64,000 nucleotides of DNA from Megamonas hypermegale (GTDB lineage Bacteria > Bacillota > Negativicutes > Selenomonadales > Selenomonadaceae): NCBI RefSeq assembly GCF_900187035.1, contig NZ_LT906446.1:1054001-1118000 (forward strand), written 5' to 3'. Of the stretch, positions 2,564 to 9,668 are shown in pieces. Below the pieces are notes generated by a model. It had not been told where the DNA came from and made no database searches. It was given only the letters and a program-made list of their open reading frames with translations. Each line of letters starts with the position of its first letter. Within the stretch, counting starts at the first letter, position 1. The translations under genes were made by a program, and so were the position numbers.

Positions 2564-2592
2564 TTGACAATTTTCTAAAAATATATTACACT
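2564..2592 (+). promoter_or_regulatory. sigma-70 type promoter of the ATP-grasp operon
   Basis: TTGACA (2564-2569) and TACACT (2587-2592) are separated by exactly 17 bases in the gap before the ATP-grasp gene. Transcription would start near 2599, just upstream of a strong terminator-like hairpin at 2607. Confidence 0.65.
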
Positions 2593-2606
2593 AATAGACG
2601 ACAAAG

Positions 2607-2638
2607 ACGTCCTATTCATTCGAATAGGACGTTTTTTA
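2607..2638 (+). terminator. terminator-like hairpin in the operon leader
   Basis: A perfect 11-bp stem (2607-2617 with 2622-2632) with a four-base loop is followed by a T run. It lies about 10 bases after the expected transcription start and 26 bases before the first gene of the operon. It cannot serve the broken EamA gene without also blocking the promoter at 2564, so it may act as an attenuator. Confidence 0.7.
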
Positions 2639-2663: not shown

Positions 2664-3977
2664 ATGGTAGAGCTTATCCGATATACAGAGAAAGTCAACG
2701 ATTTATTAAAGCGCTACGGCGTGAAATTCGGTATCTATAAAAACCACGAATTTCATGAACAACTTTTTCCATTTGATTGCTTGCCTCGCATAATCACTAA
2801 AGAGGAATTTGAATATTTAAGCATGGGATTAATCCAACGTGTCGATGCTTTAAATGCTTTTTTAAGTGATATATACGGCGAAAAAAACATCATCAAAGAC
2901 AATGTCATTCCACCAGAATTTGTTTATTCTTCTAGTGGTTACTCAGTAGAATGTGAAGGTATTGTGCCGCCTAAAAATATTCATTCTCATATTTCTGGTA
3001 TTGATTTAGTACAAGCTAAAAATGGAACATGGTATGTATTAGAAGACAATTTACGTGTGCCAAGCGGTGCATCTTATCCTATGATTGCTCGTTCTATATG
3101 CCGCCGTGCCAGCCCTATGACTTATGTGCACAATGAAGTAGCAGATAATAGAAACTACGCTAATATGCTCAAAGAAGTTATGGATTATGTAAATACTGGC
3201 GGTATCAATGCTGTATTTACACCTGGTAGAATGAACGCAGCTTATTTTGAACATGCTTATTTAGCAGAAAAAACAGGTGCTGCACTTGTCAGCACTGATG
3301 ATGTCATCGTAAAAGATGATTATTTATATTTTAAAAATTACACTGGTTCTTTAAAGAAAATTGGCGCACTTTATCGCCGTATTTCTGACGATTACTTAGA
3401 CCCAATGACATTCCGTGAAGATTCCTTAATCGGCATACCACATCTCATGGAAATCTACAAAAAAGGCAATGTTGCCATCATCAATGCACCTGGAAATGGA
3501 GTTGCTGATGACAAAGGCATTTATTACTTTGTACCAAAAATGATTAAATATTACTTAAATGAAGAACCTATTTTGAAAAATGCTCCTACTTATTTGCCAT
3601 ATTATGAAGATGACCTCAAATATGTCTTAAATAATTTCGACAAACTTGTAATCAAAGATGTTGCCGAAGCTGGAGGATATGGTGTATTTTTTGCTAATAC
3701 ACTCTCACCAGAAGAAAAGACAGCTTTTATCAATAAATTAAAACAAGAACCTCGTCGTTTCATTGCTCAAGAAGTCATTGATTTTAAAGGTCTAGAAATT
3801 TTAGATGGTGAACAGCTCATTGAACGTAAAGCAGATTTACGTGCTTTTGTTTTAAGTGGTGAAACCACTAGAGTATGGAAAAGTGGTTTAACACGTTTTT
3901 CTCGCAATCCAAATAGTTTTATTGTTAATTCATCACAAGGTGGAGGTTTTAAAGACACATGGATATTATCGCGTTAA
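2664..3977 (+). CDS. circularly permuted ATP-grasp ligase (DUF404/DUF407 type)
   Basis: A 437-residue protein of the circularly permuted ATP-grasp family, predicted to join an amine to a carboxylate using ATP. Family features seen are GIDLVQAKNGTWYVLEDNLRVPSG (about residues 112-135), the aspartate/asparagine-rich segment expected for Mg-ATP binding, and VIKDVAEAGGYGVFFA near residue 330, a glycine-rich nucleotide loop. The substrate is not known. The 3' end overlaps the alpha-E gene by 19 bases, and the gene heads a co-directional set with a transglutaminase and two deacylase-like proteins. Comparative work on amidoligases links ATP-grasp, alpha-E and transglutaminase genes in many bacteria. 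The start ATG follows AAGAAGGG. Confidence 0.85.
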   Translation: MVELIRYTEKVNDLLKRYGVKFGIYKNHEFHEQLFPFDCLPRIITKEEFEYLSMGLIQRVDALNAFLSDIYGEKNIIKDNVIPPEFVYSSSGYSVECEGIVPPKNIHSHISGIDLVQAKNGTWYVLEDNLRVPSGASYPMIARSICRRASPMTYVHNEVADNRNYANMLKEVMDYVNTGGINAVFTPGRMNAAYFEHAYLAEKTGAALVSTDDVIVKDDYLYFKNYTGSLKKIGALYRRISDDYLDPMTFREDSLIGIPHLMEIYKKGNVAIINAPGNGVADDKGIYYFVPKMIKYYLNEEPILKNAPTYLPYYEDDLKYVLNNFDKLVIKDVAEAGGYGVFFANTLSPEEKTAFINKLKQEPRRFIAQEVIDFKGLEILDGEQLIERKADLRAFVLSGETTRVWKSGLTRFSRNPNSFIVNSSQGGGFKDTWILSR

Positions 3978-4633
3978 ACAAGGTTGATAATTTAATATGG
4001 CTAGGACGTTATAGCGAACGCGTTTACAGCACTATTAAAGAATTTTTTATTAGTTACGACAAGATGTTAGAACATCCTAATTTCTACATCAAATACTGTA
4101 ATGATTTCAAAATTCCTAATATCTATAGCGATACAGAAGATTTTGTAAAACGATATATAAAAGATACAAATGACCCAAATTCCATCATTTCTAATTTATA
4201 TCGTGCTTATGATAATTGTGTTATTTTGCGCAATGAAATTGGCACACAGACAATGTCTTATTTAGAACTTGCTGTAAACGATTTAACTTCTCTAAAAGAT
4301 TTTGACTCCTGCATAATTGATTTACAGAATATCTTAGACCATATTCTCGCATTTTGGGCATCACTCGACGATGAAATAGAAAATTATGAAATACGCAATA
4401 TCATAAAACTAGGTAGACGACTTGAACGATTAGATATGTATCTTTATCTTCATAAAGATATGCATGAACTTGTAAAAGCTTGCGATATGCTAGAACATCG
4501 CTTGGACTACTCTCATATTCCTTATAATAAAGAAGCTTTTATCGAGCTACAATCCATGTTAAAAAATCCAAATACAAATCAAGATAATTTAGATTACAAT
4601 AAAGCAATATCATTAACAGAAAGTTTAATTTAA
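3959..4633 (+). CDS. alpha-E domain protein (DUF403)
   Basis: A 224-residue, largely helical protein of the alpha-E family, which nearly always accompanies circularly permuted ATP-grasp ligases. The N-terminus, LNKVDNLIWLGRYSERVYS, matches the family's conserved opening with WLGRY and ER. A second family motif, NIIKLGRRLERLDMYLYL, appears around residue 143. It is shorter than the roughly 300-residue versions found elsewhere. No catalytic residues are recognised; the family is presumed to be a partner of the ligase. ATG 3959 lies inside the ligase gene with GGAGG upstream, so the two are translationally coupled. Confidence 0.85.
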   Translation: MDIIALNKVDNLIWLGRYSERVYSTIKEFFISYDKMLEHPNFYIKYCNDFKIPNIYSDTEDFVKRYIKDTNDPNSIISNLYRAYDNCVILRNEIGTQTMSYLELAVNDLTSLKDFDSCIIDLQNILDHILAFWASLDDEIENYEIRNIIKLGRRLERLDMYLYLHKDMHELVKACDMLEHRLDYSHIPYNKEAFIELQSMLKNPNTNQDNLDYNKAISLTESLI

Positions 4634-4637
4634 TACC

Positions 4638-5426
4638 ATGAAAAATATGTATATGGATTATCATTTGAAAATTTCTTTTGATAATAAAATAAATCATCAT
4701 TTTTTTTCATTAAGATGTTTGCCCAAAACTGAACCGCGTCAAATCATAAGTGATGTGCGCATTAGTTTAGATGCAGATTATTTCTCGTTTAGCAAAGATA
4801 GTTTTGGCAATCGATTTTGGTATGGTTATAAAGAACAAGAATCTACCGAACTCAATTTACATGTAACAGCAAAAGCATTAGTAAATTGGCAGAAATACGA
4901 TTTTGACAATCATTTAAAAGATGTATTTTGTTTACCTACATCACAAACAACTATAGGTGAAAATCTACTACCTTTTTATCAAAGCTGTCTTATTAAAACA
5001 GAAAATATCTCTAATGATTATGACAAATGTCTATGTATCATGCAAATGGTACATAATACAATGTCTTATGTTCCCGAGATAACAAATATAAAAACGACAG
5101 CAGATGAAGCTTTTTCTTTAAAAAAAGGGGTATGTCAAGATTATGCTCAAATTATGCTGGCAATTACTCGTAAGATGAAAATTCCATCTCGATATGTAGC
5201 TGGTGTAATGTTAAATGAAAAATTCACCCATGCTTGGGTAGAAGTTTTCGTTAATAAGCGTTGGTATGGACTTGACCCTACGAATAATCTTCTCGTAAAT
5301 GATGCCTATATTGTTTTCTCTCGCGGTCGCGATTATAAAGATTGTCTAGTAAACAAAGGAATTTTTTTCAGTCCTGTAGCTGTCAAACAATCCCAAAACA
5401 TCATATTAAAAGTTGAGGAGGTATAA
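4638..5426 (+). CDS. transglutaminase-like cysteine protease
   Basis: A 262-residue transglutaminase-superfamily protein with an N-terminal beta-rich region (about residues 1-130) and a papain-like core. The catalytic triad is visible: Cys in KKGVCQDYAQIM, His in FTHAWVEVFV, and Asp in WYGLDPTNN. The enzyme may cut or transfer the amide bonds made by the ATP-grasp protein. There is no signal peptide, so it is probably cytosolic. It starts only four bases after the alpha-E stop, with a weak ribosome site, so it likely depends on coupling. The fold and triad are clear; the substrate is not. Confidence 0.87.
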   Translation: MKNMYMDYHLKISFDNKINHHFFSLRCLPKTEPRQIISDVRISLDADYFSFSKDSFGNRFWYGYKEQESTELNLHVTAKALVNWQKYDFDNHLKDVFCLPTSQTTIGENLLPFYQSCLIKTENISNDYDKCLCIMQMVHNTMSYVPEITNIKTTADEAFSLKKGVCQDYAQIMLAITRKMKIPSRYVAGVMLNEKFTHAWVEVFVNKRWYGLDPTNNLLVNDAYIVFSRGRDYKDCLVNKGIFFSPVAVKQSQNIILKVEEV

Positions 5427-5430
5427 TTTT

Positions 5431-6363
5431 ATGGAAATCACGGTAAGTAGTATTCCTTTACCGATAGATGAACATTACATGATAAAAAAACAACGTCTTA
5501 TAGGCGAAAATCAAGATACTCCCACTCGCCTTTGCATCGTCAGCGGTATACACGGCGACGAACTAGAAGGACAGTATGTTTGTTATCGCTTACAAGAAAA
5601 GTTGAAAGAATTAAAAGGTAAATGGAATGGCATTGTAGATATTTATCCTTGCTTAAACCCATTAGGAGTCGATTCTATCACTCGCAAAGTCCCAATGTTT
5701 GACCTAGATATGAACCGCATTTTCCCTGGTGATGCAGAAGGCTCTATGGTTGAATACGTATCCAGTTGTATCATTGATGATATACAAGGCGCTGATTTAG
5801 TCATAGATATTCATGCCAGCAATATTTATCTACGAGAAATTCCTCAAATCCGTATTAATGAACAGCAAAAAGAAAAATTATTGCCAATGGCAAAATGGCT
5901 GAATATGGATTATATTTGGATTCATTCCGCTTCCACTGTATTAGAAAGCACTTTTGCCTACTCATTAAACGAACGATGGACGCCTACTTTAGTCGTAGAA
6001 ATGGGCGTTGGTATGCGTTTAACACCTTCTTATGGCGATAGACTTTGCGATGGCATTTTAAACGCTATGATGCACCTTGGCATGATGAAAGTACAGAAAT
6101 TATCCATAAAAAAACCTATTATAAGTACAGATGGACAAGTACATTTTCTCAATGCACCTTGCTCCGGTCTGTTTATACCAACTGTTCATCATGAAAATCT
6201 CGTGCGTAAAGGCGATTTAATCGGTCATATTGTAAGTCCATTAGGTGGCGTCATAAAAAGCGAAATAATATCTCCATGTGATGGATTATTATTTACTTTA
6301 CGCGAATATCCAATTGTCAATGAAGGCAATTTACTCGGTCGTTTATTGGAGTGTACATTATGA
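5431..6363 (+). CDS. succinylglutamate desuccinylase/aspartoacylase-family deacylase, catalytically complete
   Basis: A 310-residue zinc-dependent deacylase of the M14-like AstE/AspA family. The zinc motif HxxE is in VSGIHGDELEG, the third ligand is the His of VIDIHAS, the substrate loop is DMNRIFPGD, and the catalytic Glu is in LVVEMGVG. A C-terminal biotinyl/lipoyl-like beta domain follows (GLFIPTVHHENLVRKGDLIGH). The family removes acyl groups from an amine, so here it could hydrolyse the product of the adjacent ligase. ATG 5431 is used because it sits nine bases after GAGGAGG, which itself overlaps the transglutaminase stop. It overlaps the next, paralogous gene by four bases. Confidence 0.88.
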   Translation: MEITVSSIPLPIDEHYMIKKQRLIGENQDTPTRLCIVSGIHGDELEGQYVCYRLQEKLKELKGKWNGIVDIYPCLNPLGVDSITRKVPMFDLDMNRIFPGDAEGSMVEYVSSCIIDDIQGADLVIDIHASNIYLREIPQIRINEQQKEKLLPMAKWLNMDYIWIHSASTVLESTFAYSLNERWTPTLVVEMGVGMRLTPSYGDRLCDGILNAMMHLGMMKVQKLSIKKPIISTDGQVHFLNAPCSGLFIPTVHHENLVRKGDLIGHIVSPLGGVIKSEIISPCDGLLFTLREYPIVNEGNLLGRLLECTL

Positions 6364-7292
6364 AGAAAAAATTAATTTATGAATTAAAATCCCTTTATAG
6401 AGATAGCCTACGCGTTTACGCCTATGAATTTGGTGAAGGTGAAGATAGCGTCTGTATAGTCGGAGCATTGAGAGGTAATGAAGTCCAGCAAATGTATATC
6501 TGCTCCTTACTTATCGAACGCTTAAAATCCTACGAAGAAAACAACTACATCACTAAAGGTAAAAAAATCGTTGTCATTCCTTGTGTAAATACTTATTCTA
6601 TGAACCAAGCAAAACGATTTTGGCCACAAGATGATACTGATATAAATCGCATGTTCCCTGGTTACTATGCAGGCGAAACAACTCAACGCATTGCTGAAAG
6701 CATTTTTGATGCAGTAAAAAATTTCCCTTACGGCATTCAATTCACTAGTTTTTATATTCCAGGACAATTTTCTACACATATTCGCATGATGAAAACAGGT
6801 CTTGAAGATATTGAAAACAGTAAATTATTCGGTTTGCCATATGTCATAGTCAGAGCGCCTCGTCCATATGATACGACTACGCTCAATTACAATTGGCAAA
6901 TATGGAATTGCAAAGCTTATTCTCTTTATACAAAAGCTTGTGATTTTATCGATAAACCTAGTGCCAAAGAAGCATGTCGCAGTGTATTGCGCTTCCTTCA
7001 TGAAAAAGAAATAACAACACTGCCTATACCAGGTGGTTTCCATAGTGAAGTAATCGAAGAAGACCGCATGCTCTCTATAAAATCCAAGACAGCAGGCTTT
7101 ATGGAACGCTTAGTTAAAGTAAATGAAGAAGTTCATAAAGGTGAAATTCTCGCTAAAATTTACGACCCATATGAACACACCGTCATTGAAGAATTAACTG
7201 CACCATGCAATGGAACAGTATTTTTTGTTCATGCTAAAGATATCGTTTATGCTCATACATCTGTCGTCAAATTAAAAATAAATAATATATAA
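6360..7292 (+). CDS. degenerate paralogue of the deacylase, zinc ligands lost
   Basis: A 310-residue protein, the same length as its upstream neighbour and of the same family. It keeps the substrate loop DINRMFPGY and the C-terminal beta domain (GFMERLVKVNEEVHKGEILAKI). The zinc motif HxxE has become RxxE (GALRGNEVQQ), the DIHAS motif aligns with QFTSF, and no VVExG catalytic glutamate is present. I infer a pseudoenzyme that may pair with or regulate the active copy, or a form with different chemistry. The frame is clean over its full length, so it is kept under selection. ATG 6360 overlaps the previous TGA after a TTGGAG site. Confidence 0.85.
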   Translation: MKKKLIYELKSLYRDSLRVYAYEFGEGEDSVCIVGALRGNEVQQMYICSLLIERLKSYEENNYITKGKKIVVIPCVNTYSMNQAKRFWPQDDTDINRMFPGYYAGETTQRIAESIFDAVKNFPYGIQFTSFYIPGQFSTHIRMMKTGLEDIENSKLFGLPYVIVRAPRPYDTTTLNYNWQIWNCKAYSLYTKACDFIDKPSAKEACRSVLRFLHEKEITTLPIPGGFHSEVIEEDRMLSIKSKTAGFMERLVKVNEEVHKGEILAKIYDPYEHTVIEELTAPCNGTVFFVHAKDIVYAHTSVVKLKINNI

Positions 7293-7298
7293 AAAAAG

Positions 7299-7327
7299 GC
7301 TGTAGCAAAATTTGCTACAGCTTTTTC
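7299..7327. terminator. bidirectional terminator between the deacylase operon and cca
   Basis: An 11-base inverted repeat, GCTGTAGCAAA with TTTGCTACAGC (7299-7321), has a T run after it on the plus strand and an A run before it. It can end transcripts of both converging units. Confidence 0.8.
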
Positions 7328-7329
7328 TC

Positions 7330-9668
7330 TTATTCTGCTTCTTGCGAAAATACTTTTATGCGCTGTTGTCTAATCCAATCGCCAATCTTTTTACCTTTGA
7401 TATCTTTAGGGCAATCCTTTATGGATACATCATGCAATTTTTTTAAATACGATTTATAATCAGCTAAATAATAAGGCAATCCCTTACTATCTGCTAAAAT
7501 TACACAGTTAAAACCTTCAAAACCTAAAGGATTTTTTTCTACATCTAATAATAAATCGACAATTTTAGATATTTTTTTTAATCTTCCCGCACGCATATGC
7601 TCTTTAATCACGAACAAACCACCCTGCAACCATTTTTTAGGCAAAGTCATTCGCTCATTCCATTTAAGCAAGATATTTTCTCCTATTCTTTCATGACCAT
7701 AATGATGTGGCAACATCTCTAGCGGCGTAGCTCCTTTGCCTATATCGTGCACTAAACCTGCAAAACGCACTGCTAAATCACTCGTCATGCCCGCTATTAA
7801 ATCGACAATTTCCATCGTATGTTCAAAAGCATCGCCTTCAGGATGAAAATATTCCGGCTGAGTCTTACCAATTAATGCATGAATTTCAGGAAAAAGTACT
7901 TCTAGCAAATTTGCCTGCTCTAACACGCGGAAAAATTTTGACGGATATTCAGTAGACAATGCTTTTTTCAGTTCCTGAACCTCCCACGACTAAAGTCGCG
8001 GGGTTCTCGGTCAAGTATTCTAACGAATACAGTATCTCCGAGCTATCCCCATAGTTCCTACGGTTCTTGTATATGTTATTCAAGATTAAGCTATGTTTAA
8101 TATTCTTAACCCTTCATCTCTAATATTTATAGCTGCATTTACATCTCTATCGTGATGTGTTTTACATTCAGGACAGTTCCACTCTCTAACATTTAAATCT
8201 TTTACTTCAATATTTTTATACCCACAAATATGACATAATTGGCTTGAAGGATAAAATTTATCTATTTTGACAATAACCCTGCCAAACCATTTGGCTTTAT
8301 ATTTTAGTTGTCTCATAAACTCTGACCAAGTGACATCAGCTATATTTCTTGCTAATTTATGATTTTTCATCATGTTTTCAACTTGCAAATCTTCAAGACA
8401 GATTACATCGTAATTTCTGATAAGTTGACATGTCACTTGATGTAGTAAATTGCGTCTTTGATTGGCAATTCTATCATGCAATTTAGCTACTTTTACTCTA
8501 GCCTTTTCCCAATTTGAATTACTTCCATACTATCATCTAATATAATCATGACATATGTATAGCAATATAGCAAGTGTTTATATATTAACTGCCTATTTTA
8601 AATAACATATACAAGAACTGTAGGTTCTTCTTTAGTCGTATTATGAGGTCTCGTTCATATAGAAACGCTACTTTCTATACAGTTCTCTTATGAACTTCCG
8701 TTACTTTCGTAACGGCACAGACTATATCTTATCCCTCAGCTTTACCTGTTAGAGTCTGTCCACTTCCTCAGTCAATAGCTTACTGAGTACTTCCCTCAAG
8801 AGGAATAGTCGTTGAACGTTCTCCTATTCGGAGCTTCGCTGCTGATTGTCCATTTTTCAACACTTAGGATTTAACCTTATGCTATATATCTGATTTTTTC
8901 TGCTTTCGCCACATTCACGTTTAACTTTATTTCATGTTTACGTTGTAGTTCAGATATCTTTAGGGCTTTCCAGCAATTCAAACAGTATTGGATAGATCTT
9001 AGTCTATCTCTACGTACATGTTTCTATATACGCTGACTATTTTGTTCGCCTAACTCATGATTAAAATCACAAGTGTGCGGCTCACAATAATCAAAAATTC
9101 TCTCTTGCGGTTCATAGAAAAATTCATCTTTGCATTTATACATTAAATCCAAAGTGTTTTTTGTAACTGTAAAATTAAATTCACTGGCTTGTCTAGCCGC
9201 TCTAAGTGCACGCACTGGGTCATCAGCAAAATGATTTGAAATAGCTTTTATCTGTTTTTTCTTAATATCTTCCAGACCATTATATGGGTCTAATATCTTT
9301 TCAGATAATATATCATACGCTATAGCGTTCATCGTTGTATCACGGCGATATAAATCTTCTTCAAGTGTTATTTTTTCATCACAAGTCGTTTCAAATCCTT
9401 TATAGCCATGTCCTGCTTTTTTCTCCTTGCGAGCAAAAGCAACTTCACAATTTTTGCCATCAATATTCAATAAATACACAGGAAAAGATTTTCCAATTCT
9501 TTTTGCCTCGGGAAAATTTTCTTTAAACGTCGCTTCTTTTAAATGACAAATCATATAGTCTTTATCTTTCGGTGGATAATCACGCAAAATATCGCGCATC
9601 CAACCTCCAACAATATATGCTCTACCACCTAAAGAAGCAATTTTATTTGCAAAATCAACTTCATTCAT
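7330..9668 (-). CDS. cca: tRNA CCA nucleotidyltransferase, split by an IStron; exons 9668-9090 and 7974-7330
   Basis: The enzyme adds or repairs the CCA end of tRNAs, an essential or near-essential task. Exon 1 (193 codons) carries [20 protein letters not shown] with the nucleotidyltransferase DxD, the [12 protein letters not shown] motif, and [15 protein letters not shown]. Exon 2 (214 codons) carries the HD-type domain ([17 protein letters not shown]). Between them lies a 1,115-base element. Removing 9089-7975 exactly joins GAT to GAA and gives [17 protein letters not shown], which matches the family pattern ER-[IV]-[FW]-x-E-x-x-x-AL. The product is 407 residues, close to the E. coli enzyme's length. 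Without splicing, translation reads 15 codons into the element and stops. The start follows GGAAGTGAG. Function therefore depends on RNA splicing (inferred, strongly supported by sequence). Confidence 0.9.
7975..8085 (-). ncRNA. right-end omega RNA (TnpB guide scaffold), cca copy
   Basis: The right end contains CCGTAGGAACTATGGGG, a long imperfect stem (CTCGG with CCGAG, GGGG with CCCC) and a terminal hairpin GCGACTTTAGTCGT followed by GGGAGGTTCAG. This is the usual architecture of an IS605-type omega RNA, whose guide is the flanking DNA. The guide here would start GAACTGAAAAAAGC in cca, so TTGAT plus this sequence is the element-free allele. The scaffold also overlaps the intron's 3' end. Confidence 0.8.
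8086..8518 (-). pseudogene. tnpB: tnpB, 5' two-thirds deleted
   Basis: Only the C-terminal part of the RNA-guided nuclease TnpB remains: an open stretch of about 131 codons with the RuvC glutamate (ICLEDLQ), the zinc finger (CHICG and CPEC) and the last aspartate ([11 protein letters not shown]). The start and the first RuvC aspartate are lost through the 727-bp deletion joined at 8518/8519. The remaining frame shows only a few residue differences from the intact copy at 19089, so the deletion is recent. Confidence 0.92.
8720..9089 (-). ncRNA. group I intron catalytic core, cca copy
   Basis: Read on the minus strand, the four conserved group I core elements appear in order: P (AATTGCTGGAAA, 8963-8978), Q (AATCAGCAGCGAAGC, 8833-8847), R (GTTCAACGACTA, 8806-8817) and S (AAGATATAGTC, 8720-8730). 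R and S pair as GACUA/UAGUC (P7); P and Q pair as GCUG/CAGC (P4). The 5' exon ends in U, as group I introns require, and the whole element ends in G. GUCAG at 9033-9037 is a candidate internal guide that pairs with exon UUGAU and places a U-G wobble at the splice site. Confidence 0.9.

Follow-up and report, generated by a model that had tools for sequence, protein, structure and literature searches.

Megamonas hypermegale encodes, directly behind an AstE/AspA-type zinc amidohydrolase, a paralogue of that enzyme from which the catalytic residues have gone, and the evidence assembled here supports well the view that this second protein is a selected pseudo-deacylase. It is real, conserved and, as far as literature searches reach, undescribed. 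The window, i.e., the whole stretch of 64,000 nucleotides that was analysed, carries five plus-strand genes in tandem. These encode a circularly permuted (CP) ATP-grasp ligase (2664..3977; CP_ATPgrasp_2, 447.1 bits), a short Alpha-E protein of 224 residues (3959..4633; Alpha-E, 57.3 bits over profile positions 6-166 of 294), a transglutaminase-fold protein (4638..5426; Transglut_core, 70.6 bits), and two deacylase-like proteins, hereafter U (upstream gene, 5431-6363) and D (downstream gene, 6360-7292). The putative transglutaminase triad C166, H198 and D213 was intact in 63 of 63 aligned rows. Pfam matches, residue counts and a structural model identify U as a zinc amidohydrolase with a full catalytic set. 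D starts with an ATG at 6360, its start codon overlapping the U stop by 4 bases, and continues as the clean full-length frame of 310 residues that a preliminary description of this DNA had reported, closed by a stop. That description had also stressed the equal length of the two products of one operon. U and D are indeed both of 310 residues here, but the exact equality is incidental, as 8 of 75 pairs elsewhere were equal (lengths trimmed by script), and we dropped it as a sign of constraint.

Terminator-like hairpins, each with a 15-pair stem and a T run by consensus scan, lie on the plus strand 5' of the operon (2603..2636) and directly 3' of D (7294..7326); both strands of the region held 8 such sites vs. 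2.5 expected. The top promoter-like site, TTGACA-17-TACACT (10/12), is followed immediately by the hairpin 5' of the first gene (window 2564-2636), an arrangement that resembles a leader attenuator; promoter-like sites overall were not enriched (30 vs. 29.2 in shuffles). A sixth operon member was sought in the 25 largest clusters of neighbouring genes at 80 related loci and rejected: the four largest clusters resemble shadow frames of the five operon genes, and beyond them none occurred in more than nine loci. Elsewhere in the window, the gene of the CCA-adding enzyme is in two parts on the minus strand (7330-9668), a head (9024-9668) and an HD part (7330-7959), separated by a TnpB/OrfB_IS605-like fragment (8086-8481); this head is the only match to the PolyA_pol head domain in the whole genome. 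An EamA-type transporter gene on the plus strand (1569-2443) also looks broken, with pieces at 1586-2155 and 2159-2440, a stop codon between them, and, in another frame, a start piece of similar appearance at 1569-1715.

The homology of U and D was evident from BLASTP (22% identity over 282 columns, E 1e-16) and from the Pfam family AstE_AspA_cat (PF24827), which matched U with 84.0 bits over profile positions 4-191 and D with 39.9 bits (cut-off 25) over positions 4-93 of 192 only. Together with the fold match described below, these place D in the AstE/AspA family. As the preliminary description had read them, the motifs HxxE, DIHAS and VVExG are present in U as HGDE (H41, 5551-5553; E44, 5560-5562), DIHAS (H128, 5812-5814) and VVEMG (E190, 5998-6000). 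The corresponding places in D hold RGNE (R38 to E41, 6471..6482), QFTSF, with T129 (6744..6746) at the position of the second zinc His, and Y190 (6927..6929) at that of the catalytic Glu, again in agreement with that reading. NR-FPG is common to both proteins and in D takes the form N96-R97-M-F-P-G (6645..6662), where F99, P100 and G101 were invariant in 80 rows.

To set these differences in a wider frame, relatives were taken as the best 80 of 127 from a scan of genome contigs, with 79 of the 80 loci in the D alignment (L011, with a D frame of 274 residues, was omitted) and 73 of 75 in the U alignment (L009 and L038, with short U, were omitted). U kept its zinc, catalytic and substrate-site residues in every row covering each site (97-100 of 100, the rest gaps): H41, E44 and R85 in 97 with three gaps, N95 and R96 in 98 with two, H128 in 99 with one, and E190 in all 100. 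Among 104 rows of D, the first zinc His was replaced by R38 (R 102, K 1, gap 1), position 129 was never His (A 71, T 15, P 12, S 4, C 2), and position 190 was aromatic (Y 97, F 6, gap 1), whereas R86, N96 and R97 were present in all 104. D had been described as being without zinc ligands; this holds for the two His, but the Glu of HxxE is kept (E41: E 103, gap 1), so what has gone is the catalytic Glu together with two zinc ligands out of three. U thus has both the three-ligand set (HxxE plus H) and the catalytic Glu, D has neither, and D retains the substrate-site Arg and Asn-Arg (R86, N96, R97). In aspartoacylase (ASPA), according to the available text of PMC5412892, the zinc ligands are His21, Glu24 and His116, and the catalytic site comprises Arg63, Asn70, Arg71, Tyr164, Arg168, Glu178 and Tyr288. 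Residues of U and D were matched to this numbering by motif order rather than by alignment with ASPA, a match that covers Arg63, Asn70, Arg71, Glu178 and the zinc ligands. R86, N96 and R97 of D are therefore probable substrate-binding residues. Judged from sequence, the chemistry has gone from D, and what is left is the substrate-binding side plus a single zinc ligand.

Loss of catalytic residues is also what a decaying copy of U would display, and two related operons (L011 and L081) do carry a truncated D. This explanation is extremely improbable. Median dN/dS was 0.28 for D and 0.25 for U among 195 locus pairs, i.e., those of 2775 possible pairs with dS of 0.1-1.5 in both genes, by a simple counting method; the ranges reached 0.71 and 0.69, respectively. 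By this measure D is under purifying selection of roughly the strength seen for U, and the dN values of both genes were correlated (0.88; 2760 pairs). The same replacements occurred in all readable rows of D, and in both decayed loci U is missing too. The D alignment contained 36 invariant columns with a mean column identity of 56% (80 rows). Of the 13 positions of the segment DTTTLNYNWQIWN (residues 171-183, 6870..6908), 7 were invariant in the same rows and a further 4 were at least 90% conserved. Random decay in the homologues, the outcome that would have spoken against a selected pseudoenzyme, was therefore ruled out by the selection and conservation data. The proposal of a selected pseudoenzyme, by contrast, is well supported by the absence of the zinc His and of Glu190 throughout the 104 rows, by a dN/dS near that of U, by conserved residues of D's own and by the finding of U and D together.

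The tree of U and D was built from 14 loci, the window, the D of locus L079 and 11 chosen AstE-like outgroups. It recovered a U clade (support 99/100) and a D clade (100/100) as sisters vs. the 11 other AstE-like proteins (98.6/100), with a stem twice as long for D (1.70) as for U (0.84). A D profile scored full-length U at 89-110 bits and other AstE-like proteins at no more than 51 bits; a U profile scored some other AstE-like proteins at up to 84 bits and many D at 63-114 bits. By profile score, D is thus clearly nearest to U, while U lies about equally near to some other AstE-like proteins and to many D. A single duplication, much change in D, and then constraint is the simplest reading of these data; the tree supports one ancient duplication of an AstE/AspA-type zinc amidohydrolase gene, before the sampled U and D sequences diverged.

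Predicted structures agreed with the family assignment. The AlphaFold model of D (mean pLDDT 88.8, pTM 0.87) matched 3cdx with Z 25.4 (rmsd 3.1, 282 residues aligned, model range 1-308), EutE/DoeB 6twm with 25.0, 3na6 with 24.8 and CphZ 8eip with 23.9, and that of U (mean pLDDT 90.7, pTM 0.89) matched EutE/DoeB 6twm with Z 29.8 (rmsd 2.6, 295 aligned), 3na6 with 29.2, 3cdx with 29.1 and CphZ 8ein with 27.9; Z values within 1 of each other are ties. The D model matched the family fold from end to end. U and D therefore share the fold of the AstE/AspA zinc amidohydrolases (EutE/DoeB 6twm, 3cdx, CphZ 8ein/8eip, aspartoacylase), and D has the NR-FPG of these enzymes and the Arg preceding it, but unlike them it lacks the catalytic Glu and two of the three zinc ligands and carries a conserved segment of its own, DTTTLNYNWQIWN. 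Within that segment, the block 171-180 of D had a mean pLDDT of 56 vs. 92 in U, in which the region is predicted with confidence to form helices; confidence also dropped over blocks 81-100, to 60 and 69 in D and, for part of them, in U (61, 80). A segment that is conserved yet of low pLDDT would suit ordering by a partner or ligand.

The conserved residues of D also raise the possibility that it is an enzyme with a repurposed pocket, working by metal-free or other-metal chemistry through residues such as E41, E106, H140, D171, Y190 and the LNYNWQIWN segment. H140 was found in 100 and D171 in 103 of 104 rows, and E106, D91 and E59 in all 104; H140, D171, E106, D91 or E59 might contribute to an alternative metal site, and the many invariant polar residues of D, with its 36 invariant columns, would fit another kind of catalysis equally well. 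An orphan D, described below, is also in keeping with a D that acts by itself. Since every readable row of D has lost the general base of the family and two zinc ligands, we regard this alternative as rather unlikely, though it deserves serious consideration.

In 75 of the 80 loci, U lay directly 5' of D; the two genes overlapped in 41 of these 75 and were spaced by 16 bases or fewer in 66. The complete five-gene order was present in 65 of the 80, including one locus whose ATP-grasp frame is split. Five loci were without U directly before D. At two (L025 and L080), contig ends interrupt the locus and pieces of U are visible. Two others (L011, 4271-6768, and L081, 4943-6798) look like deletion-cut operons in which the transglutaminase and U are absent and D has lost its first 40-55 residues, L081 being additionally without Alpha-E and the end of the ATP-grasp gene; U was not found in the genomes of either. 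The fifth (L079, 6010-6924) carries an intact D that has the signature residues but is flanked by neither U nor core genes, and a genome search found neither U nor CP ATP-grasp. Clostridia, Lachnospiraceae, Erysipelotrichaceae and Bacteroidales appear in the record titles of these 80 loci, as do a single Treponema and a single Mailhella; we take them to represent four phyla. Since these titles span distant bacteria, the U-D pair is widely spread, presumably in part by transfer. Isolate names of many D loci indicate gut sources, and most are metagenome assemblies in which mis-binning is possible.

Sampling of genomes gave a similar picture. Among 300 genomes of the window's class, 25 carried D and exactly these carried U, in each case next to D, with D of one genome (G252) split over two contigs. 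The 25 best D matches scored at least 338 bits, followed by U at up to 92.5 and others at up to 31; the best U matches scored at least 329 bits, followed by D at up to 75 and others at up to 68. The 24 U sequences of this sample besides that of the window were new relative to the 80-locus set. The sole genome of the same genus in the class sample (G101) gave no match to D, U or CP ATP-grasp. In the order of another D-carrying genome (G301; 196 genomes), D occurred in 18 and U in 17 of those at E up to 1e-30, and the eighteenth was the seed genome G301 itself, in which U is split over contig ends. U without D was found in neither sample (300 and 196 genomes). A search for D only in the class of a genome with a Prevotellaceae title (G305; 198 genomes) found D in the seed alone. 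To the question of whether the pair always co-occurs, the 43 sampled D genomes answer yes, with one contig-cut U, and the orphan L079 answers no. That orphan, and the retention of R86, N96 and R97 in 104 of 104 rows, would suit a D that is a free-standing ligand-binding or sensor protein, using the old substrate pocket independently of U; with U adjoining D in all 43 D genomes (the contig-cut U included), and given the close spacing of the two genes, we consider this distinctly unlikely. Kept intact and nearly always beside U in many bacteria, D very probably has a function of its own.

We also asked how closely the pair is tied to the three genes preceding it. CP ATP-grasp was present in 43 of the 300 class-sample genomes at E up to 1e-20, including 24 of the 25 pair genomes; the twenty-fifth (G225) is 73% complete and has the pair at a contig end. 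The remaining 19 of the 43, several of them incomplete (down to 60%), had CP ATP-grasp without the U-D pair, and neither U nor D was found in the stretches around it. The core thus exists without the pair: 19 of the 43 CP ATP-grasp genomes have neither U nor D, so these two genes behave as a unit. ATP-grasp, Alpha-E and transglutaminase were all present in 16 of these 19 stretches (Alpha-E by Pfam in two); in one of the others (L149) Alpha-E was not picked out, and two (L151 and L152) end at contig ends. Alpha-E was full-length in two distant cores (L153 and L154), unlike the 224-residue protein of the window. A check of nine proteins beside pair-less cores, taken from 6 of 20 stretches, revealed no Anbu; Alpha-E accounted for two of the nine, and another two (one each from L153 and L155) had no Pfam match.

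Two further arrangements were observed around the pair. In a single case it was found without the core: at the Mailhella locus (L082, 1128-5570), it lies 131 bases downstream of a complete ABC uptake system on the same strand, consisting of a permease, an ATPase and an NMT1/THI5-like binding protein, and CP ATP-grasp had no match in that genome; the locus is a single assembled contig, for which mis-binning is possible. This arrangement hints that U may act on a small amide and not on a protein tag. In seven related Lachnospiraceae loci from rabbit gut (L016, 4279-4985, in two overlapping frames; L023, 4274-4921; and five more), a kinase-like open reading frame, recognized by a motif seen by eye and without a Pfam match at 1e-5, lies upstream of U, with the transglutaminase on its other side in four of the seven (L016, L023, L028 and L029).

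The explanation that we consider best, and in which we have moderate confidence, is duplication and loss followed by selection of a D that assembles with and tunes U. The catalytic Glu and two zinc ligands disappeared from D, which, as its dN/dS and conservation indicate, strong selection then maintained as a protein in its own right. By motif order, D keeps the Arg and Asn-Arg through which related enzymes bind the carboxylate of the substrate, and the Arg-Glu pair R38-E41 occupies the place of the zinc ligands, where the guanidinium may stand in for the charge of zinc. D and U would form a hetero-oligomer with D as the non-catalytic half, binding the family of acyl-amino-acid or peptide-like ligands of U without cutting them and so activating U or setting its specificity. 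The substrate of the pair would at most loci be the compound that the ATP-grasp/Alpha-E/transglutaminase core produces, and at the Mailhella locus perhaps an imported one. The pair is of the dead-paralogue kind, i.e., two paralogues, one without catalytic residues, both under selection, and binding and tuning of U is the likeliest reading of what D does. Against a U-D complex count the orphan D, the precedent of the Anbu operon (see below) and the distance correlations, which are unspecific. Among 62 loci and the window, the highest partial distance correlation of D was with U (0.35), but raw correlations were alike for all five genes (0.83-0.91) and the partial correlation of ATP-grasp with Alpha-E (0.52) was above that of U with D; these values are therefore weak evidence for specific U-D coevolution. 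A bolder version, in which U and D are an obligate hetero-oligomer with Arg replacing zinc, taking the place of Anbu in a form of the amide-making ATP-grasp/Alpha-E system that many gut bacteria share, and also serving an uptake transporter alone, seems to us doubtful.

PMC5666114 and PMC6376114 cite Iyer 2009 for the prediction that the operon of ATP-grasp, Alpha-E, transglutaminase and Anbu is a system for peptide synthesis. The ATP-grasp, Alpha-E and transglutaminase-like genes have the same order here as is listed in the accessible text of PMC6376114. The present operon differs in that its Alpha-E is short and in that the U-D pair, not Anbu, follows the transglutaminase; the Proteasome family (Anbu) was absent from the Pfam matches of all five window proteins at E up to 10. 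In the portion of PMC6376114 available, specific interactions between co-expressed proteins of the Anbu operon were not detected, and the roles proposed for the ATP-grasp/Alpha-E/transglutaminase system were unconfirmed as of that paper. These operon domains fall in one co-occurrence network, according to PMC3597751.

Enzymes with dead-paralogue activators are described in trypanosomes in the accessible parts of PMC5201418 (AdoMetDC/prozyme) and PMC3663545 (deoxyhypusine synthase). Like U and D, these pairs join an active enzyme to a dead paralogue and are a possible analogue of mechanism; they differ in being other enzymes, while U and D are bacterial neighbour genes known here from sequence. 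The trypanosome enzymes have folds other than that of U and D. AEBP1, CPX-1 and CPX-2 are inactive M14 carboxypeptidase-like proteins of the wider carboxypeptidase fold that have lost active-site residues. These differ from D in being animal proteins with other domains and not of the AstE/AspA type. Our literature search, aimed at the operon and at aspartoacylase pseudoenzymes (for one query on the latter, the best 15 of 90 matches), judged largely by title and with subscription papers mostly outside its reach, found no description of the U-D pair.

A dead deacylase is thus conserved across distant bacteria, nearly always beside its living twin. Its retained, probable carboxylate-binding residues and its new conserved segment offer concrete sites for mutation, and the ligand of D could point to the compound made by the ATP-grasp/Alpha-E/transglutaminase system.
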